DNA of 64,000 bases from a virus. A program made the translations under genes and the position numbers. Where the stretch lies: IMG/VR virus record IMGVR_UViG_3300047470_000212, positions 1-64,000 of that record; one strand, written 5' to 3'. Below, in pieces: positions 4,153 through 50,999 of the stretch (within the stretch, counting starts at the first letter, position 1; the number at the start of each line of letters is the position of its first letter). A model generated the notes under the pieces. That model saw nothing but the letters and a program-made list of their open reading frames with translations. It was not told the origin of the DNA and ran no database searches.

Positions 4153-4229
4153 CGGAGAGACACAACCTCTCGTAGGTGGGACAGGTGCCCGGCTGGGTCG
4201 CACCCCGGCCGGGCATCCGCATACCTGGA

Positions 4230-4499
4230 CTAGGTATGAAGTCGCCCGTACATCTCTCGCAGGTACCAGCGCATGTACTCCGTGGTGCCCACCATGCGCT
4301 CACAGCGAGCCAGCGTCTCGGGACGAATGCGGATGCGTGTCTCACGCGGTCCCGCCCTGAACCTCTCCATGAAGCCCAGGTAGTCCACCATCAGGGGGCT
4401 GCTCATCCGCCTTCTCCTCTTCCTCTTCTTTGAGACCGGCCGGGACTGCTCTCGGTATCGCGTGATGACCTTCTGCTCGAACGGGTTGAGTCCGCTCAA
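4230..4499 (-). CDS. Basic protein of unknown function ending in RLHT
   Basis: Not recognised. TTG start overlapping the upstream stop (TTGA), with AAGGTGG upstream; an alternative ATG with GAGGAG lies at 4406 (58 aa). A lysine/arginine stretch (SKKRKRRRR) precedes a region that looks like a short ribbon-helix-helix (ETRIRIRPETLARCERMV), so DNA binding is possible. The last three codons are exactly the repeat CTT CAT ACC followed by TAG. Confidence 0.6.
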   Translation of the reverse strand: MSGLNPFEQKVITRYREQSRPVSKKRKRRRRMSSPLMVDYLGFMERFRAGPRETRIRIRPETLARCERMVGTTEYMRWYLREMYGRLHT

Positions 4500-4849
4500 C
4501 GGCCGACCACCTTGACCTTCACCGCGTTGCCCGACGACGGGACGAGCACGATGCTGCTGCTGGCGTGGACCTCCAGCCGGTTGTCCTCCATCAGCCGCAC
4601 CAGGAAGTAGGAGTGGAACCGCTCGCCGTCCCGGAGGAACTGGAAGGAGACGGTGGGGTTGCCGGGCACCGGCTGCCGGTTGTCGCCGTAAGGGTCGACG
4701 ATGACGTTGGCGTCCTCCGGCCCCTCGTTCAGCAGCGCGCGGGCCGTGGCCAGCTCGCCCTCCAGGCGCTGGACACGCTCCTCCAGCGACAGCACGCCGC
4801 TCTGCACCCACCTCGGCTGCTTGCCGAAGCGCTCGTCCTCGCTGATCAC
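4496..4849 (-). CDS. Unknown protein with short coiled coil (117 aa)
   Basis: Not recognised. GTG start overlapping the upstream stop. A heptad-like stretch near residues 15-40 (SLEERVQRLEGELATARAL) predicts a short coiled coil, followed by a beta-rich C-terminal half. No signal peptide. Confidence 0.65.
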   Translation of the reverse strand: MISEDERFGKQPRWVQSGVLSLEERVQRLEGELATARALLNEGPEDANVIVDPYGDNRQPVPGNPTVSFQFLRDGERFHSYFLVRLMEDNRLEVHASSSIVLVPSSGNAVKVKVVGR

Positions 4850-5166
4850 CACTGCTCTCCCACCTTCGCTTCGTTCCAGGCCTTCTCGGACACGCACACA
4901 TGGCCGGTGTCGTCGCCGTCGCGCAGGTTCAGCCGCCAGCACGCCGGGTCGGTCATCGGGATCGGGATGAAGCCCGTCAGCACCTGCGTGCACGACGTCG
5001 TCTTGCCGGACGGGGTGCACTGGGTGGTGTACATCGGCTGCATGTACGTCCAGTCGTTCTCCGGCACGTACTTCTTGCTGATGACCTCGCCGTGCTCGAT
5101 GCCTCCGCAGGCCGTCAGCAGTCCCGCGAGCGCAGCCGTAGCTGCGTAGGTATGAAGCCGCTTCAC
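4846..5166 (-). CDS. Small lipoprotein
   Basis: Signal peptide VKRLHTYAATAALAGLLTAC ends in lipobox LTAC, so it is predicted to be lipid-anchored on the outer face of the cell membrane. GTG start at 5166 with AAAAGGGG upstream. The mature part has four cysteines. Phage lipoproteins often block superinfection, but nothing here proves that. The repeat CTTCATACC forms codons 4-6 within the signal peptide's basic region. Confidence 0.7.
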   Translation of the reverse strand: MKRLHTYAATAALAGLLTACGGIEHGEVISKKYVPENDWTYMQPMYTTQCTPSGKTTSCTQVLTGFIPIPMTDPACWRLNLRDGDDTGHVCVSEKAWNEAKVGEQW

Positions 5167-11097: not shown

Positions 11098-11143
11098 GGC
11101 GCGGCCTCCTGGTGTGGGGCGGGTGGTTGGGAAGTGCTGGGGG

Positions 11144-22884: not shown

Positions 22885-22931
22885 CGGGTGCTCCTCCTGG
22901 TGGGGGGCGGTTGGTGTGTTCGACATGGGAA

Positions 22932-22959
22932 ACAATACTCAGGAAGCCGTAATCGTCAA
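22932..22959 (-). promoter_or_regulatory. Promoter for HExxH gene
   Basis: TTGACG (22959-22954), 16 bp, TATTGT (22937-22932). Direct repeat AGCCGTAATCG lies over the -35 region. Confidence 0.6.
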
Positions 22960-22977
22960 GCCGTAATCGGAAAGCAG

Positions 22978-23037: not shown

Positions 23038-23436
23038 TTACTTGGTAGACCTTGGCGCTTCCGTCACCGTTTCCTTTGGGCACGGGACCTTGACCTGCAC
23101 GGAATGCGTGTGCGCCAGCCCATACACCGGTGCGTAAGGCGTGGCCGACGACGTAGGTGCAGGTATTGCGGGCGACGGCCCGATCACGAGCGATACCTTG
23201 CACGTGCCCGAGGACTTCGACTTCGATTCCTTCGGGGTTTTCGATGGGAGATACCGCGTCACGGTAGGTACGGGCTGCGGATCGGAATCCCCTTCTGCCG
23301 CCGGAGAATCCGACCGGGAATTCTGGGTATGAAGCCCGTCGAAATCCTGCTGCGGAACCACGGAAAGTCCGATAGCCGGTACTGCGAGAATTCCGATTGC
23401 GGCCAGGGCGACTTTGATGCGCTGGAATGTGCTCAT
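23038..23436 (-). CDS. Secreted or membrane-anchored protein (132 aa)
   Basis: Hydrophobic N-terminal segment (VALAAIGILAVPAIGLSVV, residues 8-26) followed by a Ser/Pro/Lys-rich low-complexity region and two cysteines. Probably exported; function unknown. CTTCATACC encodes GLHT just after the membrane segment. It overlaps the preceding mini zinc-finger gene by ATGA. Confidence 0.65.
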   Translation of the reverse strand: MSTFQRIKVALAAIGILAVPAIGLSVVPQQDFDGLHTQNSRSDSPAAEGDSDPQPVPTVTRYLPSKTPKESKSKSSGTCKVSLVIGPSPAIPAPTSSATPYAPVYGLAHTHSVQVKVPCPKETVTEAPRSTK

Positions 23437-25161: not shown

Positions 25162-25893
25162 TTACTTCTTGACGCGCTTGACGGCGCTCTTCGGGAAGAG
25201 GCCGGGCTGGGTGACGCGGGGGCCGCGCGGGGCGGTCATGGTCGGCTTCCCCTGGGGCCGGGGGCCTTCGGTGGCCGCGAGACCGAACTGCTGTGGGGCG
25301 CGGACCTGGCTCGGACCGAACAGACCGGCCTGGACGACGCGCTGCGGCTTGGCGGCCGGGGGCGTCTGCGAGGCGCTGGCCCGCTTGAGCGGGGCGTCTG
25401 GAGTCTTCTTGCCGGACGGCTGGAAGGCGCCGACGCGGGACGTCCAGCCCTTGTCCTCGTCCTGGTTGTAGACACCCGGCGAGGAGGGAGCAGGCGTGGC
25501 CGCGTGAGGCTTGGAGCCGAACGCGGCGTGGAAGTCGTCCCAGGCCCCACCGGACGGCTTGCTCTGCGCCTGGACCTCCCCCATGCGGGAGTTGAAGGTA
25601 TGAAGCAGGTCGGAGGCTGCGCCGGAGTGCTTGGCGTGCCAGGCGTCCAGGTCCGAGCGGTGGTCCTCTCCCACGCGCTGGACCTCGGTATGAAGGTGCT
25701 GCGTTGCGGCGGCCGGGGTGTTCTCCTGGCCGAGCGGGCCGTGGGCGGGGACCTCGGGGGTGCCCTGCTTCTGGCGGGCGTTCTCCAGGGCGCCAACGCG
25801 GTCCTCGATCGTGTTGCTGCGCCGGAACTGGAGTGGATGCAGGTAGCGGTCTCTGAACTGGGTCGCGATGGCGTGGAATGCCTGGGCGCTCAT
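25162..25893 (-). CDS. Unknown protein with two LHT repeats (243 aa)
   Basis: Not recognised. Helical N-terminal part followed by Pro/Lys/Gln-rich repeats and a basic end (FPKSAVKRVKK). Two CTTCATACC copies lie 90 bp apart (HLHTE and LLHTF), both in frame. Possibly a virion-packaged DNA-contact protein (inference from the basic, low-complexity tail). Confidence 0.65.
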   Translation of the reverse strand: MSAQAFHAIATQFRDRYLHPLQFRRSNTIEDRVGALENARQKQGTPEVPAHGPLGQENTPAAATQHLHTEVQRVGEDHRSDLDAWHAKHSGAASDLLHTFNSRMGEVQAQSKPSGGAWDDFHAAFGSKPHAATPAPSSPGVYNQDEDKGWTSRVGAFQPSGKKTPDAPLKRASASQTPPAAKPQRVVQAGLFGPSQVRAPQQFGLAATEGPRPQGKPTMTAPRGPRVTQPGLFPKSAVKRVKK

Positions 25894-26687: not shown

Positions 26688-27536
26688 TCAGTGCTCGTGC
26701 TCGTGCTCGAACAGGCCCGTGTTGTGCTCGTTCACGTGCCCGTAGAAGCCTTCGCGGGCGGCGTAGTTCGGGCTGTATCCGTGGTGCTCGACCATGTGCT
26801 GGACGATGTCCTCTTGCGGGGTCTTCTTCTTGATCTTCGGCATCGGCTGGGCCTTGAACTGGTCCAGGTTGAGCACGTGGGCACCGACGTGGGTGTCTCC
26901 CCGGCCCCGGGCTTCTGCGAGGCGGTGGTGCGCGTCAGCGACGTACGGCGTACCGCCCTGGACGACGACCTTGACGTGCGGGTGCTCAGGGTCGAGCGGG
27001 CCGGTGATGTAGGAGTGTGACCCCGTCTCGTGCTCGGTCTGGCCGGTATGAAGCACCGCGCTGGTGCTGATGCTCTGGAACTTGGCGTGCTTGTCCCAGA
27101 AGGCCGCGTTGCCGTCGGACATCTGCGGGCCGTGCTTCTCGTACCACTGGTCGTCGATCTTGGTGTCGACGACGTTTCCGTGACCGTCCAGATGCCCGAA
27201 CTGCTGCGGGTTGTGGGGAGGACCCATCACCATCTGCCCACGGGACTGCGGGTAGTTGGTGCGCTCCTCGGCATGGCGATCCGTCTCGTCGCGGGCTGCG
27301 CCGATCGAGGTGACCTTGGTGAACATCCCGCCGCTGTGAGGCGTGGGATGCCCGATATGAAGTGCGCCGGGTTTGGCCTGCAAGTGCAGCGGGGTGTCCC
27401 GGGTCAGGTGGTACTTCGCCCGCAGAGCGGTCTGCTTCTGTCCTTGGGCGGATACCTTGCTGCCCAGAGGCACCGGGATCGTGGTCTGCTCGAACTGCGG
27501 ACCGGCTGCATCCGGCTTACGACTTGGAAGGGCCAT
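26688..27536 (-). CDS. ParB/Srx-like protein with His-rich tail (282 aa)
   Basis: The C-terminal half has VVVQGGTPYVADAHHRLAEA, like the GxxR/HR nucleotide-binding turn of ParB-like nucleases. It ends in a His/Glu run (FEHEHEH) that could bind metal. Repeat copies: CTTCATACC (VLHT) and CTTCATATC (ALHI). ATG overlaps the previous stop (TGATG). Function unproven. Confidence 0.5.
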   Translation of the reverse strand: MALPSRKPDAAGPQFEQTTIPVPLGSKVSAQGQKQTALRAKYHLTRDTPLHLQAKPGALHIGHPTPHSGGMFTKVTSIGAARDETDRHAEERTNYPQSRGQMVMGPPHNPQQFGHLDGHGNVVDTKIDDQWYEKHGPQMSDGNAAFWDKHAKFQSISTSAVLHTGQTEHETGSHSYITGPLDPEHPHVKVVVQGGTPYVADAHHRLAEARGRGDTHVGAHVLNLDQFKAQPMPKIKKKTPQEDIVQHMVEHHGYSPNYAAREGFYGHVNEHNTGLFEHEHEH

Positions 27537-28602: not shown

Positions 28603-28995
28603 TCAGAGTTTCAGAGAGGAGCGGATTTGGGCCTCCTGGGCCTGCCGCTGCATTGCCTGCCCGACCATCATCATCTGCTGCTGGGTGCGCTGGGCCGTCT
28701 CCATGACGGTGAGGTCCTTCTGCACCACGGCGACCGCCCCGTAGATGTCGTCAGGGGTGGCGCCGCGCCGGGGCACGAACTGCTGGGTCAGGTCGCTGGT
28801 GGCGATGACCGCGCCGTCCAGGCCGATGGCGACGATGAACGCGGTGGTGCAGGGGGTGCCGATCTCGTCCTCGCCGGGCGGGTTCTCGTCCGCCATCTTG
28901 GCCAGGGCCTCACGCTGCTCGGGCGTGAGGTCGTCGGTATGAAGCGCGTCGGTGTTGGCGGTACTGGGGGTCTGGCCGAGGATCGGGATGCTCAT
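28603..28995 (-). CDS. Unknown protein with Gln/Met-rich helix (130 aa)
   Basis: Not recognised. Acidic N-terminus with the repeat (ALHT at residue 17), a hydrophobic strand (TAFIVAIGLDGAVIATS), then a Gln/Met-rich C-terminal helix. Followed by a strong terminator. Confidence 0.65.
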   Translation of the reverse strand: MSIPILGQTPSTANTDALHTDDLTPEQREALAKMADENPPGEDEIGTPCTTAFIVAIGLDGAVIATSDLTQQFVPRRGATPDDIYGAVAVVQKDLTVMETAQRTQQQMMMVGQAMQRQAQEAQIRSSLKL

Positions 28996-29611: not shown

Positions 29612-30484
29612 TCACTTCTTGATGGTGAACAGGCCGCTGTCCTTGGCCAACTTCGTCAGGGACTCCAGGCCCGGCGCACCCTTCGCGTCGTCACCCCGGT
29701 AGCCCTTCTTGGCCCGGTACAGGTTGTAGGCGGTGTCGGTCTTGGTGCCCCACGAGCCGTCCACCCACCGCGCGTCCAGGTAGCCCAGAGCCGACAGCGC
29801 GTGCTCGACGAGCGAGACGTCCGCCTTGTGGGTCACGTGACCGGTGGCCGCCGGGAGGTCCTTCTTCCGGGCCTCCACCACGTTGGAGAGGTCGACGACC
29901 GGCTTCGGCTTCGGGGCAGGCTTCACAGGAGGCTTCGGGGCGGCCGGAGTGGCCGGGGTATGAAGCGAAGGGTTCTGCGACTTCCACGCCGGGTCGGCCG
30001 ACTCGATGCCGCCGTCGTAGAGCGGGTACCCGTAGCCGTAGACGTGCGGGTCGGTGCGGAGATGCGTCTTGGAGTAGACACCGTCTCCCTCTGGCGAACC
30101 GTTGGCGTTCGTGTTTCCTTCTACTGAGAACACGTGAGTCGCGTCGAATCCGATGACGACGCCGGTATGCGTACCACCACCCGGCCCGTAGAAGATCTGG
30201 GCGCCGATGGCGGGGTAGGCGGAGAAACGCTTCCGGGCCTTGAACCAGGAAACTCCGGTCGCGCACGAGGCGGTAACCGGGTAGGAACCCTTCGGGAGGC
30301 CAGCCGTCTGGAAGGCCCACGCCGCGAATACAGCGCACCAGGCGCCCTCGACGTTGTCGACCCATTCCAGGCCGGGGACGAGATCGGCGTACTTCTCGTG
30401 GTTGTTCCAGTGGCCGCCGGAAAAGCCCTCGTGGTATCCGACCTCGGCCTTTACGACCTTGGCGAGAGTATCGGTGATCGACAT
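29612..30484 (-). CDS. Endolysin: CHAP-type peptidoglycan hydrolase with C-terminal binding domain
   Basis: Cleaves host peptidoglycan at the end of infection. The N-terminal ~150 residues match CHAP/NlpC-like amidases: NVEGAWCAVFAAWAF holds the catalytic Cys and GGGTHTGVVIGFD the catalytic His. A Pro/Lys linker (about 170-200) with the repeat (SLHT) joins a C-terminal domain (LSALGYLDARWVDGSWGTKT) resembling a peptidoglycan-binding module. No signal peptide, so export needs a holin. ATGA overlap with the upstream gene. Confidence 0.8.
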   Translation of the reverse strand: MSITDTLAKVVKAEVGYHEGFSGGHWNNHEKYADLVPGLEWVDNVEGAWCAVFAAWAFQTAGLPKGSYPVTASCATGVSWFKARKRFSAYPAIGAQIFYGPGGGTHTGVVIGFDATHVFSVEGNTNANGSPEGDGVYSKTHLRTDPHVYGYGYPLYDGGIESADPAWKSQNPSLHTPATPAAPKPPVKPAPKPKPVVDLSNVVEARKKDLPAATGHVTHKADVSLVEHALSALGYLDARWVDGSWGTKTDTAYNLYRAKKGYRGDDAKGAPGLESLTKLAKDSGLFTIKK

Positions 30485-31195: not shown

Positions 31196-32452
31196 TTAGA
31201 ACAACTTCTGCTGGCCCGGGTGGACCTCGGTATGAAGCCCGTTCTTGCCGTAGGTGTTCAGGCTGTTGTCGTGGTTGTCGCCCCGGCGCCGCTTCTCCTC
31301 GGACCACTGGGCCGACTGCATGTTGGTGAGGGAGTTGAGTCCTCGCTCCTGCATGACGTTGCGGGCCACGTGGTCGTGGAAGGCGTGGATGCCCTTGATG
31401 CCCATGTAGGCCTGCTGGGATCCGGAGCCCTTCTTGTCCTCCAGGTGCGGAGCGAACGCGCCACCGCCGGAGTGTGTGTCGGACACCCAGAACTGCGAAG
31501 AGCCGTGAGGGTCCACCCAGGAGTTGTGATAGGCGGAGACCTTCTCACCGGCCGTTGGCTTCCAGGCGTCGGACAACTGCTTGCCGTTGAGGACCTGGTG
31601 CGTGACGTCGACCGCGAGGGCGTGGTTACGGGGGTAACCGTTGGCGGGGTAGGCCCGGGTGTCGCCTTCCTTCTTCACCAGTTCCGTGGACTTCTTGCCT
31701 GCCTTCGAGGTGACGGTCTTCTCGACCTTGTCCTCGCGCGGGACGTAGTAGTCCTTGTGGTACTGGTAGTCGGCGCCGGTCTTGCCGGACTTGGCCCACT
31801 GAATCGCGTGGCTCGCTGCCTGGTCGTTGGGGTAGACCGCCTTGCCCGTCACCTTGTCCGGCCGCACGAAGACGTTCTGCGGGGACGTGATGGCGTTCGC
31901 AGCAGCCTGCACACCGAACGGGACTCCATTCTCCTTCGCCGACGTCTTCAGACGTGCACGCGGGCTCAGGGAGCCGTCGCGGGTGTGGTCCGAAGCCGGG
32001 CTGTAGAAGGAGTCATGGTGGCCGCCCTCGTGCGTGTAGGCGCGGTCGACCTGGGCTGCCAGAGCCTTGTGCGCGCTGTCGGGGGTGACACCGAACTTGG
32101 CCGCCGAGCGCAGCACGCGGGTCTGCTCGGCTGGGGTGTGGTCCTCCCACCTACGGTTGACCGGCATCATGTCCCGGGCGGGGTTCATGGTGTGCTGGCC
32201 GTGCCAGACGTTCGAGCCCTCGGGGCCCGCCAGTTCCATCTGTCCGTGGACGTTCGGGGACTTGTCGGTGTTGCCCATCAGCCGGTACGACTGCTTGGCG
32301 TTGCGACCGGCGCCGGGCTGGTCCTGGATGGTCTTGAACCGCTCGGGGTTGGCGGCCTCGTAGGACGCGCGCTTAAGCGAGGCGTCCTTGACGGTCTTGT
32401 TGTAGACGCGTGTATCGGCAGCCTTCTGTGCCGGTGTTTTCGCAGCAGCCAT
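31196..32452 (-). CDS. Large basic polar protein of unknown function (418 aa)
   Basis: Not recognised. Lys/His/Asp-rich and mostly hydrophilic; HEGGHHDSFY near residue 140 and a FHDHVARNVM segment near 360 give several possible metal ligands. The repeat (GLHTE) sits 10 residues from the C-terminus. Size and composition would suit a capsid-internal or tail-associated protein (inference). Confidence 0.65.
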   Translation of the reverse strand: MAAAKTPAQKAADTRVYNKTVKDASLKRASYEAANPERFKTIQDQPGAGRNAKQSYRLMGNTDKSPNVHGQMELAGPEGSNVWHGQHTMNPARDMMPVNRRWEDHTPAEQTRVLRSAAKFGVTPDSAHKALAAQVDRAYTHEGGHHDSFYSPASDHTRDGSLSPRARLKTSAKENGVPFGVQAAANAITSPQNVFVRPDKVTGKAVYPNDQAASHAIQWAKSGKTGADYQYHKDYYVPREDKVEKTVTSKAGKKSTELVKKEGDTRAYPANGYPRNHALAVDVTHQVLNGKQLSDAWKPTAGEKVSAYHNSWVDPHGSSQFWVSDTHSGGGAFAPHLEDKKGSGSQQAYMGIKGIHAFHDHVARNVMQERGLNSLTNMQSAQWSEEKRRRGDNHDNSLNTYGKNGLHTEVHPGQQKLF

Positions 32453-34143: not shown

Positions 34144-34551
34144 TTACTTCTGGGAGATCCAGCGTCCGATTTCCTGCGCCGGAGGCTTTTCGAGGTAGAC
34201 CTTGGCTCGGGTGAAGAACTCCGGGTCGTCCCGTGCGTGGCCGAGCAGGTCATTGCACGGCCGACATAGAAGTCCTCGAACCAGCAGAGTCTTGTGGTCA
34301 TGGTCGACGGACAGGCGCCGGGTGGCACCGGTTGCTCTGCGGCAGATTGCGCACCGGCCGCCCTGGGCCTCATACAGGGTGGTGTAGTCACCCTCACCGA
34401 GTCCGTAGGTGGTCTGTACGCGCTTCTCGTGCGCGGCCTTGCTTCGGCGCTTCTTCTCGTCGCGCCAGTGGGTGGCGCACCGGGGGCCGGGGTTGGGCGC
34501 TGGGCGCTTGCTCCCCGGCTCACAGTCCTTGCAGACCTTGGGGGTGGTCAC
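34144..34551 (-). CDS. Recombination endonuclease VII-like resolvase
   Basis: Cuts branched DNA such as Holliday junctions before packaging. C-terminal domain matches endonuclease VII: YEAQGGRCAICRR, SVDHDHKT (catalytic His), VRGLLCRPCNDLLGHARDD. Four Cys (two CxxC) bind the structural zinc. Extra N-terminal Cys residues (CKDCEPG). GTG start in GTGA overlap with the kinase gene. Confidence 0.85.
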   Translation of the reverse strand: MTTPKVCKDCEPGSKRPAPNPGPRCATHWRDEKKRRSKAAHEKRVQTTYGLGEGDYTTLYEAQGGRCAICRRATGATRRLSVDHDHKTLLVRGLLCRPCNDLLGHARDDPEFFTRAKVYLEKPPAQEIGRWISQK

Positions 34552-35150
34552 GCGAGGGCCAGGATGTCCCTGACCTTGGTATGAAGGTCGGTCAGGTCGC
34601 CGTCGTTCTTGATGTGGGCGTCGAACCACTTGTCCGGGAGTTCCTTCTCCGACTTGTGGTCGTTGACCGCGCCGACGCCGGGCCGGGTGACCTTGATGAG
34701 CAGGCCGAGACGGCTGTCGATGGCGTGGTGCTCGTTCTCGAACCGCAGGTCGGTGAACACGTACTTCTTCTTGTCGTCCAGGTCCTTGAAGGCGGCGTTG
34801 ACCCACACGTCCTGGCTGATCATTTCCCGGCCGACCTCGGTACCCAGGACCTGGAGCATCCGGCGGATCTCCTCGTAGCGTCGCTTGGCATCCTCCCAGC
34901 CGATGTCGTCCACGATCTCCTGGAGGGACCAGGTACGGCCATCGGCATCGGAGAGGATGACGGGGTTGAGGACGTACAGGGCCTCGCGCAGGATGTCGGC
35001 GAAGGCGACGCGGTTGTATCCGTAGTCGGCCAGGATGCGGGCGACGGAGTCCTTACCGGCGCCCGGGTAGCCGTGGAGTCCGACGAACTGCGGAAGCCAG
35101 GCCTCAATGATGTCGGGGGCGTCGATGGTGTTGGTGGTGGCGGTGCTCAC
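34548..35150 (-). CDS. Deoxynucleoside monophosphate kinase
   Basis: Phosphorylates dNMPs for phage DNA synthesis (T4 gp1-like). P-loop GLHGYPGAGKDSVA near residues 24-37, with the lid/base-binding region AFADILREALYVLN and a C-terminal TDLRFENEHHAID segment typical of phage dNMP kinases. 200 aa, usual length. Next to thyX, consistent with dTTP supply. Repeat (DLHT) lies near the C-terminus. Confidence 0.8.
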   Translation of the reverse strand: MSTATTNTIDAPDIIEAWLPQFVGLHGYPGAGKDSVARILADYGYNRVAFADILREALYVLNPVILSDADGRTWSLQEIVDDIGWEDAKRRYEEIRRMLQVLGTEVGREMISQDVWVNAAFKDLDDKKKYVFTDLRFENEHHAIDSRLGLLIKVTRPGVGAVNDHKSEKELPDKWFDAHIKNDGDLTDLHTKVRDILALA

Positions 35151-38874: not shown

Positions 38875-39007
38875 AAGAGACCTCCAGAAGCGTGGCGAGG
38901 AGATTGAACTTCTCGTGGGCCCGGCCCTGGCGCCGGGAGTACCGGACGCCAAGGACCAGGATGTAAATGGCTGCTAGACCCAGCAGCACGGAGAGCATGG
39001 CCACCAT
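38795..39007 (-). CDS. Small membrane protein (70 aa)
   Basis: One membrane helix (VAMLSVLLGLAAIYILVLGV) and an acidic C-terminus. Starts in a TGATG overlap with recA and overlaps the resolvase start by 80 bp. Confidence 0.6.
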   Translation of the reverse strand: MVAMLSVLLGLAAIYILVLGVRYSRRQGRAHEKFNLLATLLEVSYGGHVEEEPEAGEAGGGTPRRDGKCR

Positions 39008-40194
39008 CAGGCGGCCTCGGTATGAAGCCCGTCGGTCTCTTCGGGCTTGGGCCGTCGGCTGACCTTCTTGGTTCCTGCGGTCTGGGCGGCGTCGAGGTCG
39101 TCCTCGGAGATGCTTCGCTCGTCGGCGTGCGTGGACGCGGCCAGGACCTGCTCGTAGAGGTCTTCCTGAAGAGTCAGGTCCTGGCGGAGCCGGTCGAGCA
39201 TGGGCTCCTTGCCCTGCCAGCGCAGAACCGGCTTTCCCTTCTCGTCGAATTCCCCGTTGTCGATCTCGAAGTAGGCGCCCTTGCGCTTGATCACGTCGAA
39301 GAGAATGCCCATGATCATGATTTCCTTGACGGTGTCGAAGTCACCGCGAGCGAAATTCAGGAACGGGGCGGAGCGGAAGTAGGCGTCGATCGTTGCGACC
39401 TGCTGCGGGGCGGCCGACTTGTTCTTGATGGTCTTTACCTTGATGACCTGGCCGACATTTACCTTGCCCTTTCCGGGCCGGGCTTCCTGAATCCACTCGT
39501 CGCGCCGGACTTCCACCCGGGTGTAGAAAGCGTAATTCTTGGCGTTTCCACCGGGAGTCGTGGTCGGCGTACCGTGCGGGGAGAACTTACCGATCGCGTC
39601 GCGGTACTGGTTGATGACGATTCCGAGCAGCGGTCGGTCGTCGGGGTCGGTCATGGACCGCTTGGTCGCGGCGCCGGACTTGCGGAAGAACTTGCCGGTG
39701 AGGCGGGCGCCGAGCGCCATGGTCGCCTCGTCCATGTCCTTCTCGGATTCCTCGTCCGGAATGAGGGCCGGGTAGGAGTCGAGCACGATCATGTCGACCG
39801 AGCGGGACGTCGCGAAGTCGAGCATGGTCTGGTAGGCGAATTCCATGGCCTGGGTCGGGACCACGATGACGCGGTCGTTGTCGACGCCCAGCGCCTCGGC
39901 CTGGTCGGTGTCGTAGTGCTCTGCGGCGATCCACAGGCAGGTGAAGTTCGGGTCCTTCTTCTGGTTGGCGGCCAGCGTCTTGTAGACGATGAACGTCTTG
40001 CCGTGGGACTCGCGGCCGATGACCTCGACCCACTGGTTGCCCGGCCAGCCGCCACCGAGGGCGATGTCCAGGGAGAGGGAGCCGGAGGTGAACCGCTTGG
40101 CCACCTTCATCTCGGAGGCGAAGCAGACGGCGCCTGCACCGTGCTCCTTGTTGACCTTGGCGATGAGAGCGAGGGCGTCCTTGTTGATGCTCAA
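39007..40194 (-). CDS. recA: RecA-family recombinase (TTG start or -1 shift from leader)
   Basis: ATP-dependent strand-exchange protein. Walker A GRESHGKT near residue 60, Walker B MIVLDSYPAL, and GIVINQYRD with the loop PGGNAKNYAF match RecA. The C-terminal ~60 residues are acidic/basic and end GLHTEAA with the repeat. The frame opens at TTG 40194, preceded only by a G run; the clear ribosome site belongs to a leader ORF at 40223 that overlaps this TTG. Confidence 0.88.
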   Translation of the reverse strand: MSINKDALALIAKVNKEHGAGAVCFASEMKVAKRFTSGSLSLDIALGGGWPGNQWVEVIGRESHGKTFIVYKTLAANQKKDPNFTCLWIAAEHYDTDQAEALGVDNDRVIVVPTQAMEFAYQTMLDFATSRSVDMIVLDSYPALIPDEESEKDMDEATMALGARLTGKFFRKSGAATKRSMTDPDDRPLLGIVINQYRDAIGKFSPHGTPTTTPGGNAKNYAFYTRVEVRRDEWIQEARPGKGKVNVGQVIKVKTIKNKSAAPQQVATIDAYFRSAPFLNFARGDFDTVKEIMIMGILFDVIKRKGAYFEIDNGEFDEKGKPVLRWQGKEPMLDRLRQDLTLQEDLYEQVLAASTHADERSISEDDLDAAQTAGTKKVSRRPKPEETDGLHTEAA

Positions 40195-40223
40195 CAGGGG
40201 CCCCCGTAGGTATGAAGTCGCAT
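40191..40223 (-). CDS. recA leader ORF MRLHTYGGPC
   Basis: ATG 40223 with CAGGAG nine bases upstream encodes 10 residues and stops at TGA overlapping recA's TTG. It contains the repeat CTT CAT ACC and, at codons 8-9, the heptamer G GGC CCC. A -1 slip there reads on as CTG TTG AGC into recA. Confidence 0.5.
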   Translation of the reverse strand: MRLHTYGGPC

Positions 40224-40267
40224 GTGGTGTTACTCCTGATCCGATAACGGCAATGCCGTAACGAAGA

Positions 40268-40352: not shown

Positions 40353-42311
40353 TCAGGTGGTCACGAGGTCGACGACCTCACACGCCCCTGCGACGCACGC
40401 CAGTTCCTGGGAGCCCACGGTCTGGTCGTAGGTCTCGTAGAAAGCGAGGTCCGACCACTCAACGCGGTGCTCCTCAGTGGCCTGCGCCTCGTACTCCTCC
40501 TTCGTGATCTCCGTGTACGGCGCCTGCACGTACGTGTGATCGCTGTAGGGGAGGAAGGAGACACCACTGATCTCGTCCAGGTGCTCCCAGACCCACTCGC
40601 CGACCTCGGCCCACTCGTGCTCACGGACGCTGATGGTCACCGAAGGCTTGTGCTCACACCAGTGCCGCTGATAGGCCAGCCAGATCTCCAGGTGCTCGAT
40701 CGCGGAGACGTCCTCCCGCACCAGGGCCGTGTCGCTGGCCCGCTGGGGGAAGGTGAACACCCACGCGGAGGAGTTGTAGGCGTCCTCCTCGTGCGGGATC
40801 CCGGCGTCGATCATCACGAACGCGATGGGGTCCTTCTTGTCCACGCGCACACGCCGCTCGTAGAAGCGGGCGTGCTTGGTATGAAGCCCGGACTCGCAGT
40901 CGACCAACTGGGAGACGGTGCCGGAGGGCTTGACGCAGGTGATCGCATCCGAGGACGGGATACCGATGCGCTGGGCCTCGGTCTCGTTGGCGACGCGTGC
41001 CGTCAGGCGAAGGTCGGTCAGCGAGAGGGACGTCAGTCCCATGCCCAGGCTGCCATTGGTGAACTGGTTGCCGAAGACACCGGTGAGGCTGACGCCGAGG
41101 AGTCGCTCCTCCTCCGCGTTCTTGCGCCACTCCTCACGCAGGTACGGGTAGTCCGTCAGCGTGCTCTGCCAGGTGCCGAGGATGGCCGCCAGGCGTACCT
41201 TGCGCTCCAGGTCCTCGACGGTGTCCTCCGGCCGGACGACGACCTCGGACAAGTTGCAGAAACTGAACGGCCGCAAAATGATCTCGCTGCACGGGTTGGT
41301 CCCGTAGTCGGTGTCGGCCGACCGGTGCCCGTACTCAGCGGCCTGACGCTGGGCTGCACCACGGTGGAAGATGCCGCGCTCACCCGAGCCGGACGCGACG
41401 ATCGAGTCCCACTCCTGGTTGAAGTCCTCGTAGCGCATGCCGTCGTAGTAGACCGCACTGTTGTTGGCGAGGGCTCGGTAGGCGTGATCGACCCACCACT
41501 CCCCTGCCTTCGCCTGCGCCATCTCCTGGTCGTCCAGGTCGGACAGGGAGATCATCGCCGAGCGCCGGACGCCACCGACCACAACGACGCTGGCTATCTT
41601 GCACGCCAGGTCGTGGACCTCGATCGGACGGAACTGGCGGCCCTTGGCGCCGTGGAACAGCGCGGTGGTGAAGTTGAACAGGTCGTCGAGCGGACCCGGT
41701 CCGGAGGCTCGCCCTCCGAAGGTATGAAGACGGGCGCCCGCCGGTCGCACCTTGGACAGGTCCCACTGCCGTACTTCACCGGCCCACAGACCCTCCAGCA
41801 GCGAGCGGAAGGCCAGTCCCCAACCTTCCTTGCTGTCCTCGACCACGATCACGTCGGAGGCAGCCACCAGGGCGTCGGGGACGGCGGGGAGTTGGTCGGT
41901 GTACTTCTTCTCGACGCTGTAACCGACGCCAGTGCCGTTCATGAGGATGTAGAGGAGTTCGTCCAGGGCGCGGGCGTCCTGCAACGGCAGGTACGAACAG
42001 TTGAAGCCCGCGATATTCGAGCGGTCCAGGGCAGCACCGGCAGTCATCACCGCGCGCATGGACGGCATGACCTCGTGGGTTAGCACGGCCTGGCGGACGG
42101 CCTCGACGACCTCCGGCTCGGGGGTGTAGTCGTGCTTGTTCTTCAACTGGCCGATCATGAAGCCGACGTAGCGGTCCACGGTCTCGGTCCAGGTCTCGCG
42201 GCGATTCGCGTCCTCCAGCCAGCGGCTGTATCGGCTCTTCGCGATGAAGGAGCGGTAAGGGTCGGCGATGTCGCCGGAAGGGGTGAGCAGGGAGGTCACC
42301 AGGAAATCCAT
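40353..42311 (-). CDS. nrdJ: B12-dependent ribonucleotide reductase (class II)
   Basis: Reduces ribonucleotides to deoxyribonucleotides using adenosylcobalamin. Visible landmarks: MPSMRAVMTAG, GFNCSYLPL (first redox Cys), NPCSEIILRP (catalytic Cys and Glu), CVKPSGTVSQLVDC and a C-terminal CVAGAC redox pair. 652 aa, as expected. Two repeat copies: RLHTFGGRASGP, where the family usually has LKTFGG, and SGLHTKHA, where it usually has SGIHPRY/H. Confidence 0.88.
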   Translation of the reverse strand: MDFLVTSLLTPSGDIADPYRSFIAKSRYSRWLEDANRRETWTETVDRYVGFMIGQLKNKHDYTPEPEVVEAVRQAVLTHEVMPSMRAVMTAGAALDRSNIAGFNCSYLPLQDARALDELLYILMNGTGVGYSVEKKYTDQLPAVPDALVAASDVIVVEDSKEGWGLAFRSLLEGLWAGEVRQWDLSKVRPAGARLHTFGGRASGPGPLDDLFNFTTALFHGAKGRQFRPIEVHDLACKIASVVVVGGVRRSAMISLSDLDDQEMAQAKAGEWWVDHAYRALANNSAVYYDGMRYEDFNQEWDSIVASGSGERGIFHRGAAQRQAAEYGHRSADTDYGTNPCSEIILRPFSFCNLSEVVVRPEDTVEDLERKVRLAAILGTWQSTLTDYPYLREEWRKNAEEERLLGVSLTGVFGNQFTNGSLGMGLTSLSLTDLRLTARVANETEAQRIGIPSSDAITCVKPSGTVSQLVDCESGLHTKHARFYERRVRVDKKDPIAFVMIDAGIPHEEDAYNSSAWVFTFPQRASDTALVREDVSAIEHLEIWLAYQRHWCEHKPSVTISVREHEWAEVGEWVWEHLDEISGVSFLPYSDHTYVQAPYTEITKEEYEAQATEEHRVEWSDLAFYETYDQTVGSQELACVAGACEVVDLVTT

Positions 42312-42787: not shown

Positions 42788-43250
42788 CGAATTGCACTCC
42801 GTCCGCGTACGTGATGATTCCCATGTCGAGCAGGTTGGCGAGGACTGCCACCATTCCGGCACGCAGTACAGAGGAATGATGCCGCTGTAGAGCGACGGCC
42901 GTTTCCTCGTCCGCTGAAATGCCAGAGTTAACCAGCATAGCCGAGGCAGTAATGCCGGAAACTAGTGGACCGAGGAGGTCCAGCATTTCCTTGAGGGGAA
43001 GGACCTGCGCGAGCCTTTCGTGGCTGGCCCGGTGCTCCATTTCGCTGACGTCCGGGCTCTCCGGGCTCAGTTTCATGAGCGGGATCATCTTCTCCACGTC
43101 CGAGCACGGGATGATGTCCCAGAGCAGGCGCTTGGTGAGCATCTGCGGAGTGAAGAGGTCGACCTGCGGCTCTTCTTCCTCGAAGTCCTCGTAGTCCTCG
43201 TAGTCCTCGTAGTCCCCGAAGTCCCTGTTCTTACGGTTGAAGAATCCCAT
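42780..43250 (-). CDS. Unknown protein with DYE repeats (156 aa)
   Basis: Starts MGFFNRKNRDFG, then tandem DYEDYEDYEDFEEEE (in-frame near-repeats of gactacgag), then a helical domain. Starts in an overlap with the polymerase stop. Function unknown. Confidence 0.65.
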   Translation of the reverse strand: MGFFNRKNRDFGDYEDYEDYEDFEEEEPQVDLFTPQMLTKRLLWDIIPCSDVEKMIPLMKLSPESPDVSEMEHRASHERLAQVLPLKEMLDLLGPLVSGITASAMLVNSGISADEETAVALQRHHSSVLRAGMVAVLANLLDMGIITYADGVQFGE

Positions 43251-45229
43251 TACTTAGCCTCACTCCAGCGGTCAACGATTTTCACGTCCGACGACAGCGG
43301 CACCTTGAGCAGTTTCTGGATGTCCTCGCCGAGCATGGCTTCCCGAACAAGGTCGGCGGCCTCTTCGGCGCGGTCCTCCGGAGCGAGGACGACGAGTTCG
43401 TCGTGCACCGAAAGGATCAGGCGGATTTCGTTCGGCAGGGAGTTGTTCAGCCGGATCATCGCCAACTTGATCAGGTCGGCTGCGCTTCCCTGGATCAGGC
43501 TGTTGACTGCCTGGCGCTCGGCGCCCATTCGCAGGCCGTTGTTCTGCGAGAGCATGAGCGGCAGGCGACGCTTGCGGCCGAGCAGCGTGCGGATGTACGG
43601 AGGTCGCCGCGACCGGCAGACCTGGATGACCCTTTCCTTGAAGGCGTAGATCTCCGGGAACAACTTCTGGTGCATCTCCATGAAGCGCTTGGCTTCCTTG
43701 ACGGAGATCTTCGCCATGCTGGCGACCTTGTCCGGGCCAGCGCCGTAGACCACGGCAAAGTTGATGCCCTTTGCGACCTGCCGGAAGTCGATACACGTAC
43801 GGTCGCCGCTCTTTACCCGCGCCATGAATTCCTGCGGGTCCACGCCCATAAGCGCGGCAGCGGTGGCCGAGTGAGGGTCGACGCCGTTGTGGAATCCCTT
43901 GTAGAGATCGCCTCGACCGATGAAGTGCGCGAGCACCACGAGTTCGATCTGCCCGTAGTCCGCGACGACCAGTTTGTATCCGGCCGGTGCGACGAACAGG
44001 CCACGGATTCGCTTACCGAGGTCCGTGTCCGGGCGCGGGATGTTCTGGAGGTTGGGTTCCCGGCAGGAGAATCGTCCGGTCACCGTTCCGTACTGGACGA
44101 AGTCGGCGTGGATCCTGCCGTCGAAGATGCGGCACGGCTTCTTCGGGTCGTCCTCGATACCGAGGTAGGACAGCGGGTAGTCGAGCAGCTTGCTGACTTC
44201 CGCGTACTCCAGCAGTTTCTTGACGACCGCGTTGTTCTCGTGCTTCTCCAGGCTGTCGGCGTCGGTGGAGTAGTCCTTCCACTCCAGCTCCTGCCCTGCC
44301 TCGCGCTTCTTCTTTCCGCCGTCGGTCGGCTTGGTGGGGCGCAGGCCCTGGCCGCCGTCCTTCTTGGGGGCGTACAGGACTGCGGCCTTCTGGGCCGGGG
44401 CGTTGAGGTTGAACTGCTGTCCGGCAGCGCGGTAGATGTCGGCCTCGATCTCGACCAGGCGGGCGCTCATGTCGCGCACCAGCTCCTGCATGGCCATCTG
44501 GTCGACAGGTGCTCCGGTGATGCCCATGTCGAGCAGCACGCCGAGGACGTCCTCTTCCAGGCGCCGGACGTTGATCAGGCCCTGGTCGTGGATGCGCTTC
44601 TGGAACTTTTTCCAGAGGAGCCAGGTGTACTTGGCGTCCATGTACGCGTAGTGCGCGACCTTGCCGAAGGGGTGGGCCTCGACGCACTTGCCGACGTTCT
44701 CGGTGTCGTAGTCGACCTTGTAGTACTTCTTGACGAGTTCCTTGAGGCCCTTCTGCTTGAGGTTTTCGTCGAGGAGCCACTGGAGGACGATCGTGTCGCT
44801 GTACTGCGGGGGTGCGATCTCGCCCCAGTACTTCGCCGTGGAGATGAGGTCGAAGGTCGCGTTGTGCGCGATCTTGATCTTGTCCTCGGCGAAGAACAGC
44901 GGCTTGAGGATGGAGAACACCTCGCTCGGGAGCATCTGCTCCGGCGGGGCGTCGTAGACAGCCGGGATGGCGTCGAACTTCCCGGTGATCTTGTTCTTCT
45001 TCTTCGTGGCCTTGCTCAGCAGGACGTCGCCGTTGGGGTGGCCGAACGGGATGGCCACAGCCATGCCGTCGGTGGCAAGGCTCATCCAGTTGGCGACGTT
45101 CTGCGTCGGGACGTTCCGGTTGGGGCCGAAGGTCTCGATGTCGAAGGAGAAGGCCGGGCGCTCCATGAAGCGCTCGACCACGGTATGAAGTCGGTCGGGG
45201 GTGAGGATGACGCTGTTCCTGATGGTCAC
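43250..45229 (-). CDS. DNA polymerase I (family A) with 3'-5' exonuclease
   Basis: Replicative phage polymerase. Exonuclease motif FSFDIETFG (residues 25-33) and later exo segments; polymerase motif A VVADYGQIELVVLAH, motif B region RQVAKGINFAVVYGAG and motif C SVHDELVV. 659 aa, no 5' nuclease domain. GTG start at 45229 with GGAGG; repeat (RLHT) at about residues 13-15, before the exonuclease domain. Confidence 0.92.
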   Translation of the reverse strand: MTIRNSVILTPDRLHTVVERFMERPAFSFDIETFGPNRNVPTQNVANWMSLATDGMAVAIPFGHPNGDVLLSKATKKKNKITGKFDAIPAVYDAPPEQMLPSEVFSILKPLFFAEDKIKIAHNATFDLISTAKYWGEIAPPQYSDTIVLQWLLDENLKQKGLKELVKKYYKVDYDTENVGKCVEAHPFGKVAHYAYMDAKYTWLLWKKFQKRIHDQGLINVRRLEEDVLGVLLDMGITGAPVDQMAMQELVRDMSARLVEIEADIYRAAGQQFNLNAPAQKAAVLYAPKKDGGQGLRPTKPTDGGKKKREAGQELEWKDYSTDADSLEKHENNAVVKKLLEYAEVSKLLDYPLSYLGIEDDPKKPCRIFDGRIHADFVQYGTVTGRFSCREPNLQNIPRPDTDLGKRIRGLFVAPAGYKLVVADYGQIELVVLAHFIGRGDLYKGFHNGVDPHSATAAALMGVDPQEFMARVKSGDRTCIDFRQVAKGINFAVVYGAGPDKVASMAKISVKEAKRFMEMHQKLFPEIYAFKERVIQVCRSRRPPYIRTLLGRKRRLPLMLSQNNGLRMGAERQAVNSLIQGSAADLIKLAMIRLNNSLPNEIRLILSVHDELVVLAPEDRAEEAADLVREAMLGEDIQKLLKVPLSSDVKIVDRWSEAK

Positions 45230-45312: not shown

Positions 45313-46122
45313 TCAGTCGTTCAGGATCTCGCGGGCGATCTGCTTGAGTTCGTTCCGCGTGTTGACGTGCAGGACGTCCTCGTCGTAGGCCTTGGAGTCG
45401 AACTCCTCCAGGTCCTCCTCGGTCAGCGGGTCGATGTCCCAGTCGTCGAGGAGGTCCCGCTCCTTGACCGGGGTGATGTAGTACGTGGTCTTGTTGTTCT
45501 TGCTCTGCTTGGAGACGCTGAAGTACAGGTCGTCCCGGTTGATCGGGGCGGTCTTCTTGTCCTTGGAGTAGTTCTTGAGGATGTCGGCGACCATCGGACC
45601 GAACTGCCACACCTTGATGACCGGGTCCTCGGGGTCGGTGAAGTCGACGACGTTGAACGCAATCTGCTGGGACGGCTTGTCACCCGCGTCATCGCACAGC
45701 GGGCAGCGGCTCTCCAGGCACGTCCAGGACCGCTTGCCCTTGCGCTCGATCCAGTGCTGGAGGAAGACCAGGAACGGCTCCTCGTCCAGGATCTTCACCA
45801 CCACGGCCTCGTTGGTGACCTTGAAGTTCTCCGGGAAGCCGGACGTGGCGGACTTGGTCTTCTCGTAGGAACCCCAGCCCTTGCCACCGACCTTCGGCGC
45901 AGGCTCGTTGTCCTCCTCGTCGTCCTCCTCGGAGGCGCGGCGCGAGCGGCGGGAGGCGGGGGCCTCCTCGGTATGAAGCGACTCGCGGCGCGAGCGGCGA
46001 GAGCCCCGGGCCGGGCGCTCGGTCTCCTCCTCGGCGTAGCCGTGCTCCTCCTGCTCGTCGTCGGCGGGGGTGTAGGCCTCGGTCGCGGCAGCGGTACGGC
46101 GGCGGGTCAGAGTGCGGGGCAT
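45313..46122 (-). CDS. Candidate phage ssDNA-binding protein with zinc motif
   Basis: The N-terminal 90 residues are charged and disordered (Arg/Ser and acidic runs) and hold the repeat (SLHT). The core KRSWTCLESRCPLCDDAGDK has three cysteines plus aromatic strands (FNVVDFTD, IKVWQFGPMV), as in gp32-like phage ssDNA-binding proteins. Acidic C-terminal region present. Location next to the polymerase fits. Not proven. Confidence 0.55.
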   Translation of the reverse strand: MPRTLTRRRTAAATEAYTPADDEQEEHGYAEEETERPARGSRRSRRESLHTEEAPASRRSRRASEEDDEEDNEPAPKVGGKGWGSYEKTKSATSGFPENFKVTNEAVVVKILDEEPFLVFLQHWIERKGKRSWTCLESRCPLCDDAGDKPSQQIAFNVVDFTDPEDPVIKVWQFGPMVADILKNYSKDKKTAPINRDDLYFSVSKQSKNNKTTYYITPVKERDLLDDWDIDPLTEEDLEEFDSKAYDEDVLHVNTRNELKQIAREILND

Positions 46123-46361
46123 CAGTTGTTCTCCTGCTGGTAGAGATGGATGTACGACTTGTCCTCGGCTGTGTTCAGCCGGGCCTCTTCGATGTCAGCG
46201 GCCAGCGCGTCGTGGATGTAGTCGACGGCGATCTTGTCGAGGTCCATGGGGGTGCGTGCCTTGGGGAAGTTGTCGGAGTCGATCTCCACGGAGGCGGAGA
46301 ACTCGACCCACTCGAAGTTGCCCATGGACACGTGGTGGCTGGCGCTGCGGGTGATCTTCAC
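46122..46361 (-). CDS. Unknown small protein (79 aa)
   Basis: GTG in GTGA overlap with the regulator gene. Single alpha/beta domain (FEWVEFSASVEID). Not recognised. Confidence 0.65.
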   Translation of the reverse strand: MKITRSASHHVSMGNFEWVEFSASVEIDSDNFPKARTPMDLDKIAVDYIHDALAADIEEARLNTAEDKSYIHLYQQENN

Positions 46362-46822
46362 TGCTCGGCCAGCCTCTTGAAGAGGTCGATGACGCGGGCG
46401 GTGAACTGGGTGCCCTTGATGGGCTTCTGGTGCGAGACCAGAACGCCCTCCTCGTGCGCGATGCGGACGATGCCCTCGACCTGCTCGCGGGTGTAGAGGC
46501 GGCGACGGCCGCGCGGGTCGTCGTCCTTGCCCGGGGACTGGAAGGTGGACTTGGGAATGACTCCCTCCCTCTCCCACTTGCGGATGGTCACCGGCTGACG
46601 GCTCAGTGCCTTGGCGAGTTGACCGAGGGTGAAGAACTCAGTCTCCACACCGCCCACCGTGTACTTCCGGGGCTTGTGGTCCCAGTCGGCCGCCGACGTG
46701 GCGGCCTTGGTATGAAGCCCGTTGCGGTTGTGGTGGCGGACGATCGGCTTGGTGGACCCGGGGTAGAAGGCTTCCCCGATCTCCGCGAAGTCCTGCTCGA
46801 TGCTGGCGAGTGCAGTGCTCAT
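46358..46822 (-). CDS. MerR-type helix-turn-helix regulator
   Basis: Central FTLGQLAKALSRQPVTIRKW, then EREGVIPK, is the MerR-like winged helix; GRRRLYTREQVEGIVRI follows as the wing and third helix. No effector domain, so it is excisionase- or RacA-like in size. The N-terminal extension carries the repeat (GLHTK). Probably DNA binding; target unknown. Confidence 0.7.
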   Translation of the reverse strand: MSTALASIEQDFAEIGEAFYPGSTKPIVRHHNRNGLHTKAATSAADWDHKPRKYTVGGVETEFFTLGQLAKALSRQPVTIRKWEREGVIPKSTFQSPGKDDDPRGRRRLYTREQVEGIVRIAHEEGVLVSHQKPIKGTQFTARVIDLFKRLAEQ

Positions 46823-47397: not shown

Positions 47398-47751
47398 TTA
47401 CGGCTTCTTCGGATCCATTCGAACCGTGCGCCGGGCCGCGTAGGCGCGGGCGTCGTCGTCCAACTGATCCATGCGGACTTCAGTCTCGGCCACGTCCTGG
47501 TAGACGGTGACCACGCGGTGGTCGGCCGGGTCGACGATGGCGACGATGTCCCCTCGTACGTGGCGCCACTGTCCGGGGACGCGGGCCGAGGGGTAGGTAT
47601 GAAGCGGCTTGTCGGCCGCGAGGAGAACATCCTCGCTGGTCCAGCCCTTGGCGGCGGCCTGCTTCTGCGCGTGGTAGGTCAGCCGGTACTCCGGCGACTC
47701 GGTGGCGGGAGCGGTCCAGGTGATGCCCAGAGCTTCGGCGATGGTGGCCAT
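47398..47751 (-). CDS. DUF4258-like protein (117 aa)
   Basis: YRLTYHAQKQAAAKGWTSED, then VLLAAD, HVRGDIVAIVDPADHRVVTV has the order of DUF4258 proteins, a RelE/BrnT-like small fold. Here the repeat encodes PLHTY in the middle of the fold. Could be a nuclease-like toxin relative; weak evidence. Confidence 0.5.
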   Translation of the reverse strand: MATIAEALGITWTAPATESPEYRLTYHAQKQAAAKGWTSEDVLLAADKPLHTYPSARVPGQWRHVRGDIVAIVDPADHRVVTVYQDVAETEVRMDQLDDDARAYAARRTVRMDPKKP

Positions 47752-49985: not shown

Positions 49986-50031
49986 TGGCGGCCTCCGCCC
50001 AGGTATGAAGCCGGTTGTTCATGGGGTGCAT
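49972..50031 (-). CDS. 19-residue leader ORF with LHT repeat
   Basis: MHPMNNRLHTWAEAANASA; ATG overlaps the primase stop (TGATG) with GAGG five bases before. The stop lies 8 codons after the HNH gene start. Codons 8-10 are CTT CAT ACC. Confidence 0.45.
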   Translation of the reverse strand: MHPMNNRLHTWAEAANASA

Positions 50032-50999
50032 CAGAACCTCGCTATGACGGATGAGTAGGCGTTGCGGACGGCGTTCTTGAGGGCGTCGGCCCCCATGTCG
50101 CCGGGGTCCTTGCAGGGGGTGCCGGAGTAGTCCAGGAACTTCAGGGACAGGCCTCGGCCGGTCCACTCCTCGCGCAGCCGCTTGCACGTCTCGGCTCCTG
50201 CGGTGTCGTTGTCGAGCGCGATGATCACGGAGTCGAAGTGGTCCCGGATCAGGGACATCTGGGCGTCGGAGACTCCGGCGCCGAAGGAGGCGAGACCGGC
50301 CTTGAAACCGCAGGCCCGGAGCCGGACGACGTCCAGAGGAGACTCAACCAGGATGGCCGTGTCGTCCTCGTAGGTATGAAGTCCGAAGAGGGTCTTCGAC
50401 TTGGCCATGCCCGGCGGCCGGTTGCGGAAATAGCGCTCGTTCTTCTCCTGCCAGCCCCACAGCATTCCCGTGTCGGGGTCGCGGACCGGGATGATCCACA
50501 TCTCCCGCTCGGTGTCCCACAGCACGCCGCAGGCTTCCGCGTCCTCCGGCATGAAGAACCGCTCGGCGCAGGGGGTCAGCGGCGGGGTGACGTACAGGGC
50601 CAGGCTGGCCTCGTTGATCTGCTTGGTCGTGTCGACCGTCTTGGGGTCAGCCTTCTTCGCCAGGAACTTCTTGACCCGCTCGATCCCGCCCCGCTGCCGG
50701 ACCCAGGCGACCGCGTCCCCGTACGGGAGGTCGAGCATGTCCTTTACGAGGACCACGAAAGGGCCCTGGTAGCGGCAGGAGAAGCAGTTGAAATACCCAG
50801 CGTCGTAGTTTATGGAAAAGGATGGGTGCTTGTCTTTCTTTCCGGTCCGCGCCTCATGCATCGGGCACGGCATGTGAATCTCGTCGCCGCTGACCTTGTA
50901 ATCCAGGCCAATCTCATCCAGGCAGGCGGTGACGTTGCCGGGAACCGGAGTTCCTACTGCGTCCCAGCCGCGCGCCTTAGAACGAACCCTGGTAGCCAT
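50031..50999 (-). CDS. DnaG-type primase
   Basis: Makes RNA primers. N-terminal zinc finger: CPMHEARTGKKDKHPSFSIN, YFNCFSC (CHC2 type). Toprim core: AILVESPLDVVRL (catalytic Glu) and IIALDNDTAG (DxD). 322 aa, shorter than bacterial DnaG as it lacks a helicase-binding domain. Repeat (GLHTY) just before Toprim. Overlaps the helicase gene by 23 bp. Confidence 0.87.
   Translation of the reverse strand: MATRVRSKARGWDAVGTPVPGNVTACLDEIGLDYKVSGDEIHMPCPMHEARTGKKDKHPSFSINYDAGYFNCFSCRYQGPFVVLVKDMLDLPYGDAVAWVRQRGGIERVKKFLAKKADPKTVDTTKQINEASLALYVTPPLTPCAERFFMPEDAEACGVLWDTEREMWIIPVRDPDTGMLWGWQEKNERYFRNRPPGMAKSKTLFGLHTYEDDTAILVESPLDVVRLRACGFKAGLASFGAGVSDAQMSLIRDHFDSVIIALDNDTAGAETCKRLREEWTGRGLSLKFLDYSGTPCKDPGDMGADALKNAVRNAYSSVIARF

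Follow-up and report, generated by a model that had tools for sequence, protein, structure and literature searches.

Short asymmetric sites repeated along a phage genome are described in the cluster A mycobacteriophages (L5/Bxb1 type), in which stoperators occur in tens of copies, lie in one orientation relative to transcription, and vary in consensus between related phages (PMC6550527, PMC9283540). The Streptomyces phages R4 and phi-Scoe also carry many repressor sites, which are reported as intergenic (PMC10276819), and the DNA uptake sequences of the Pasteurellaceae and Neisseria are short words that run through coding regions with a biased location and orientation (PMC2346458). At the level of RNA, YafQ acts frame-dependently on mRNA in the ribosome and Rae1 uses a cryptic open reading frame (ORF) as its site (described or cited in PMC12320835). 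Here we describe a nine-base word, GGTATGAAG, in IMG/VR virus record IMGVR_UViG_3300047470_000212, a phage record of 107,080 bases of which the first 64 kb (64,000 nucleotides, here called the window) were the starting point of the analysis. The word resembles the stoperators in its many asymmetric copies (23 in the window and 35 in the record) and in their single orientation, and it differs from them in placement: cluster A stoperators are mostly between genes and of mixed phase within genes, whereas every copy of the word occupies frame 0 within an ORF.

Within the window, GGTATGAAG was found 23 times on the plus strand and never on the minus strand, and the expectation from shuffled sequences was 0.13 copies (maximum, 2). 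The whole record contained 34 copies on the plus strand and 1 on the minus strand. The minus strand is the coding strand of nearly all genes in the record, and the plus-strand word reads in gene sense as CTTCATACC, that is CTT CAT ACC, which encodes Leu-His-Thr (LHT). The lone minus-strand copy, at record position 88203, is inside a small plus-strand gene, where it has that gene's sense and the same frame. Large contigs hold roughly 24 to 38 copies each, and the preference extends to 14 bases, G-CTTMATACC-KASG, which are likewise asymmetric. In three genomes, LHT was spelled exactly as CTTCATACC in 68 of 85 cases, even though CTT and CAT are minor codons, and the synonymous spellings of LHT were at background level. 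Chance and codon usage as the source of the copies were ruled out by the shuffles and by these codon counts. We conclude, with very little room for doubt, that the nucleotide string itself is what selection keeps.

Two of the copies are in nrdJ (40353-42311, minus strand), an ORF that encodes a 652-amino-acid class II (B12-dependent) ribonucleotide reductase as judged by tblastn to annotated phage ribonucleotide reductases (at most 59% identity over 99%). An earlier inspection of the DNA (the sequence-only reading) had proposed that both copies stand where class II enzymes usually have LKT-like and SGIH-like residues, already close to LHT, and that the nucleotide string is selected within what the protein tolerates. 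Both copies are exact matches to GGTATGAAG and both are in frame as CTT CAT ACC on the minus strand: site 1, at 41721-41729, encodes residues 195 to 197 in the context ARLHTFGGRASGP / RLHTFGGRASGP, and site 2, at 40878-40886, encodes residues 476 to 478 in the context ESGLHTKHA. Five phages are close relatives by nrdJ (79 to 87% identical), two of which share the window's word genome-wide with 24 copies each (C-type). The remaining three carry GGTATTAAG instead, in 16, 21, and 27 copies that are equally strand locked (A-type).

Codons at the two nrdJ sites were compared among homologues. At site 1, the codons are CTT CAT ACC in the C-type phage L001, CTT CAT ACT in the C-type phage L005, and CTT AAT ACC (Leu-Asn-Thr, LNT) in the three A-type relatives, and phages without the word family have LKT, LRT, or LQT in scattered other codons. 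At site 2, CTT CAT ACC was seen only in the window phage and the C-type phages nearest to it, including L001; the codons there are CTG CAC CAG in the A-type relatives and CTG CAC CCG in L005, a C-type phage at a greater distance. The middle residue of site 1 is variable (K, R, Q, H, or N), and thus both types can write their own word at that position. Homologues at site 2 mostly read [LIM]H[PAQT] and the His is kept in 29 of 29 aligned sequences, such that LNT could not be written there without losing it. The residues that the sequence-only reading had given for class II enzymes agree with the alignment. Its view that copies occupy places already near LHT was upheld as well, as relatives lacking a copy show L, H or N, or T at the word columns clearly more often than background (among the majority residues of outgroups, L in 9/26, H in 5/26, and T in 5/26, against backgrounds of 8%, 2.3%, and 6.7%). 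LHT written in other codons by a close homologue without the word family was not found in the codon alignment, and the nearest approach to such a case, the CTT CAT ACT of L005, belongs to a phage that itself carries the family. The word rewrites conserved residues in enzymes such as NrdJ, and the selection must therefore be strong. We conclude that the pattern in nrdJ supports the prediction of nucleotide-string selection within protein tolerance, with the qualification that tolerance alone leaves the codon phase unexplained.

The A-type and C-type words differ by a single letter, C to A at base 4, and the difference is the same at orthologous sites. A table of 57 orthologous sites, drawn from the gene families of 15 genomes, showed the word in both types at 25 sites, in the C-type only at 17, and in the A-type only at 15, with only 1 cell of the wrong type. 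Contigs of the clade were almost purely C-type or A-type, and neither a G nor a T form at base 4 was found among the clade contigs surveyed for word type; two stray G-form words were noted in one A-type record. The gene for a RelE-like protein, considered further below, gives a second clean case besides nrdJ, encoding PLHT (CTT CAT ACC, once ACT) in the C-type and PQHT or PHHT (mostly CAG CAC ACC) in the A-type. A tree of 27 concatenated families grouped the A-type phages in a single clade (support, 99) nested within a paraphyletic C-type, with two deep nodes at only 61%, and a tree of polA alone left the order of the types unsettled. From the concatenated tree, the C-type looks ancestral. The carriers are a group of Streptomyces-type phages; among named phages, the nearest in DNA polymerase I, Streptomyces phage BRock (Borockvirus; 53% identity), is without the repeat family, and no comparable word was found in BRock, G016, G017, or 50 kb of Faust. 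Recombination at the word was rejected as a general rule, as differences are small and local at almost all sites and unrelated upstream sequence was seen only at the 4233 locus.

Frame and sense were determined for the same 15 genomes with our own simple gene caller, most of the genomes being uncultivated contigs. There were 401 exact copies, of which 347 are on the sense strand of called genes, and all 347 share one codon phase. Three copies, versus those 347, are antisense to called genes, and the three opposing calls are probably spurious. The 54 copies outside the sense of called genes are in frame-0 ORFs that the gene caller missed or in mini-ORFs (for example, MRLHTYGGPC and MRRLNT), and because many are mutual orthologues, they do not amount to 54 independent events. 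A Shine-Dalgarno sequence with a start codon open to the word was present in frame 0 for 35 of the 54, versus 2 and 3 of the 54 in the other frames. Moreover, no copy outside a frame-0 ORF was found in the 15 genomes, though called genes leave about 12% of each genome uncovered. Variants in the last two bases (CTTCATATC/ATC, ACT, and ACG) share the phase, with one ACG copy excepted. Genes on the minority strand have the word in their own sense, and thus, the sense lock follows genes and not the replicon.

The supply of near-matching sequence and the tolerance of the proteins were each considered as sources of the phase. Among three-mismatch neighbors of the word in C-type genomes, frame 2 was the commonest (824 versus 393), and windows compatible with the orthologous protein numbered 112 for frame 1 versus 56 for the LHT frame. 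Tolerance alone would give a frame-0 share of about 0.3, against which 57 of 57 sites in frame 0 has a probability near 1e-30 when sites are treated as independent. Because the tolerance windows favor another frame, something more is required to account for the absolute codon phase. Stop codons are distributed unequally between the types, as one other frame would place a TAA inside the A-type word and neither other frame places a stop inside the C-type word. We conclude that the word is conserved at the nucleotide level, locked to one strand and one frame of its genes, and different by one letter at orthologous sites according to phage type. We found no precedent in the open-access literature for a genome-wide word that holds to a single codon phase and has the same letter changed at about 25 orthologous sites between two phage types, so its novelty is unproven.

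From the frame lock and from the start codons ahead of copies outside called genes, both of which bear on the matter indirectly, we think it probable that the word is read during translation, and the best single explanation, to which we give a probability of roughly one in two, is that it is read in the mRNA during translation by a phage factor. We favor a site in mRNA that is read during translation by a protein of the phage, because RelE-type proteins, YafQ, and Rae1 act on mRNA in the ribosome. Codon phase and translation matter for cleavage by those enzymes, and cryptic mini-ORFs can be their sites (described or cited in PMC12320835). The enzymes differ in that they are not known to have tens of identical 9-nucleotide (nt) sites in a single genome. 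The nrdJ copies are among about 35 copies of the sense word (G)CTT CAT ACC(KASG) throughout the phage, and selection keeps the string on the coding strand and in one phase, at places where the protein tolerates Leu-His-Thr or Leu-Asn-Thr. In the proposed mechanism, a phage-encoded factor would read the string in mRNA under translating ribosomes, and its specificity would have changed once, from C to A at base 4, with all sites following. More tentatively, and at odds that we place clearly below even, the reader could be RNase-like: a ribosome-dependent protein of this kind might cut or stall phage mRNA at CUU-MAU-A, and the cut or stall might set the level or timing of phage expression. It is a real possibility that the phage marks tens of its own genes with a codon-phase address, which translating ribosomes would show to the phage-encoded reader, and that reader and addresses switch together to give specificity groups at mRNA translation instead of at DNA. 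Ribosomal reading of the word, if it occurs, would be a new viral way to control or mark the virus's own mRNAs, and the two types offer natural pairs for testing the word.

Two phage proteins are candidates for the reading factor. The first is a RelE-like/DUF4258 protein of 117 amino acids (47398-47751, minus strand), the product of a clade core gene, that would account for the frame requirement. Pfam DUF4258 was detected in 9 of 11 members of the family (best E value, 7e-4), with the window copy below the cutoff. The AlphaFold2 (AF2) model had a core predicted local distance difference test (pLDDT) score of about 90, and its top Foldseek matches included RelE/BECR folds and CdiA-type RNases. 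The gene was present in the five near-complete carriers and in G005, and a reciprocal-best homologue was found in none of three outgroup genomes; weaker homologues occur in other Streptomyces phages, one of them annotated as a BrnT-like toxin. The second candidate is a HicA-like protein of 80 amino acids (record 93411-93653), the two alleles of which split with word type and which would account for the specificity switch. Type-diagnostic residues were denser in it than in any other of 95 core families, and its identity across types was 38 to 40%, versus a genome median of about 75%, but was normal within types. The predicted fold is a helix, three strands, and a helix (mean pLDDT, 70). Pfam HicA was detected in 7 of 12 members (best E value, 5e-5), with the window phage's copy at 0.0038, below the cutoff, and Foldseek matches included 1whz and HicA structures 6g26 and 4c26 (template modeling [TM] score, approximately 0.35 to 0.54).

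Several observations weigh against a ribosomal reader of this kind. The RelE-like protein has 1 type-diagnostic column, and with so little difference between the types it gives no sign of the specificity switch on its own. The fold assignments and family matches of both candidates are weak, with no Foldseek match at an E value of <0.001, and the distant HicA-like homologue L231 sits in a phage without the word, in which CTTNATACC was not found. HicA toxins are described as translation independent, which fits poorly with a frame requirement. Finally, enzymes of the RelE, YafQ, and Rae1 type read about one to two codons, and a signal of 9 to 14 nt exceeds what any ribosome-dependent nuclease is known to read.

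Phage tRNAs were also considered as the reader and were rejected. Genes for tRNA-Asn, tRNA-Leu, tRNA-Phe, and tRNA-Pro are present in both types, and an unusual tRNA-His, which is restricted to the window's subclade (G000, G001, G012, and G013), does not follow type, as none was detected in G014 or G005, both of which are C-type. The tRNA-His(GUG) gene (L082:17737-17822, record 101737-101822, minus strand) combines a class II body, whose long variable arm resembles that of tRNA-Leu, with encoded G-1 and C73.

The strongest alternative to a word read during translation is a stoperator-like one, in which a phage repressor binds the duplex word and blocks elongation one way, with the frame arising from coding constraints. 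As in cluster A, copies number a few tens per large contig in one orientation to transcription and the consensus shifts between related phages; moreover, the asymmetric 14-base preference suggests base-by-base recognition, and the internal TAA would bar one other frame in A-type phages. However, 35 of 40 stoperators in two cluster A mycobacteriophages were intergenic and those within genes were in different frames, whereas the word has no copy outside a frame-0 ORF despite the uncovered part of each genome. The ancestral-looking C-type has no stop to bar either other frame, the tolerance windows favor frame 1, and no covarying DNA-binding repressor was recognized among the 95 core families. 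We consider a stoperator-like role unlikely.

An RNA might also read the word. A conserved three-hairpin element (P1, P2, and P3) with compensatory pairs is located at 4145-4253 on the minus strand, where it precedes a membrane-protein gene, the start of which is covered by P3. In stem P1, the MAUACCU of the word copy at 4233 pairs with (A/G)GGUAUK, and the partner strand tracks the word type in 10 of 10 genomes inspected (G with C and U with A). Sequence upstream of the element is unrelated between groups of genomes. A group I intron or other known RNA was rejected for this interval, as no Rfam match was above the gathering score. We infer that the element may be a regulatory site of the word system itself. 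The switch of the pairing strand with type would also be expected if the RNA acted in trans, its GGUAUK strand pairing with MAUACC in mRNAs for antisense control or trans-splicing. However, cis pairing within P1 suffices for the covariation, base pairing would not depend on a reading frame unless it led to splicing, and neither a group I intron nor any other Rfam family was matched, and thus we regard action in trans as improbable.

A signal for replication, recombination, or packaging that is read in DNA, of the Chi, KOPS, or uptake-sequence type, could likewise take the form of a short word on one strand, dispersed across much of a genome. The polarity of Chi and KOPS is set by the replicon, however, whereas the strand of the word goes with the gene even against the majority direction, and its codon phase is absolute. 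Uptake sequences occur in both orientations within genes (PMC2346458), unlike the word, which is sense only and in one frame, and we consider a DNA-level signal highly improbable. Lastly, selection for a peptide tag, LHT or LNT, would explain the constant reading frame but is scarcely credible, as synonymous spellings are at background and the His-to-Asn replacement and LHI variants preserve nucleotides instead.

The other copies in the window are all exact matches read from the minus strand. Frame-0 copies within called genes are at 665-673 (gene 2-997), 2964-2972 (gene 2517-3023), 25597-25605 and 25687-25695 (both in gene 25162-25893), 28936-28944 (gene 28603-28995, an orthologous site in both types), 29957-29965 (gene 29612-30484), 45970-45978 (gene 45313-46122), 46709-46717 (gene 46358-46822), and 50373-50381 (gene 50031-50999), and one at 47596-47604 is inside the RelE-like gene (PLHT). 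Others in frame 0 are near the start of a gene, at codon 3 of gene 3151-3402 (3388-3396; MALHTYGG), codon 4 of gene 4846-5166 (5149-5157), and codon 14 of polA, 43250-45229 (45182-45190). Frame-0 copies are also found toward the C terminus, near that of gene 31196-32452 (31229-31237), near that of the deoxynucleoside monophosphate (dNMP) kinase gene 34548-35150 (34578-34586), at that of the recA-like ORF 39007-40194 (39019-39027; LHTEAA followed by a stop), and at that of an ORF ending in RLHT and a stop (4233-4241), which is also the 5′ half of stem P1. Two further frame-0 copies are in a conserved ORF missed by the gene caller (23326-23334) and in a minus-strand ORF opposed by a plus-strand call that is probably spurious (27045-27053). 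Mini-ORFs account for the copies at 50002-50010 (MHPMNNRLHTWAEAANASA and a stop) and 40209-40217, the latter in a leader mini-ORF, MRLHTYGGPC and a stop, with AGGAG and ATG, that overlaps the start of the recA-like gene. The TGA of this mini-ORF (40190-40230, minus strand) overlaps the TTG at which the recA-like gene starts, and in A-type phages the same leader is joined in frame to RecA and forms its N terminus (MALNTCAGGPDKEA).

Other repeats were noted in these genomes. CCTCCTGGTGTGGGG is repeated before minus-strand genes at 11105, 12629, 18245, and 22893; it corresponds to CCCCACACCAGGAGG and resembles start-associated sequences in being a repeated, extended ribosome site. A word of the AAGCCGTAA/TTACGGCTT type is repeated in intergenic gaps (1727-1764 and 22921-22972; also counted in G003 and G004) and is possibly a promoter or operator family separate from the nine-base word. 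The record also encodes a tyrosine recombinase (record 87002-88078, minus strand) near a large serine recombinase (88469-90553, plus strand), as well as an XRE/DUF5753 gene (96730-97584), which hints at a temperate or plasmid-like life. A relative, L176 (Nonomuraea typhae NZ_VRLV01000004.1), with a polA product 51% identical, is located inside a bacterial contig of 735 kb, which suggests that it is a prophage outside the clade.
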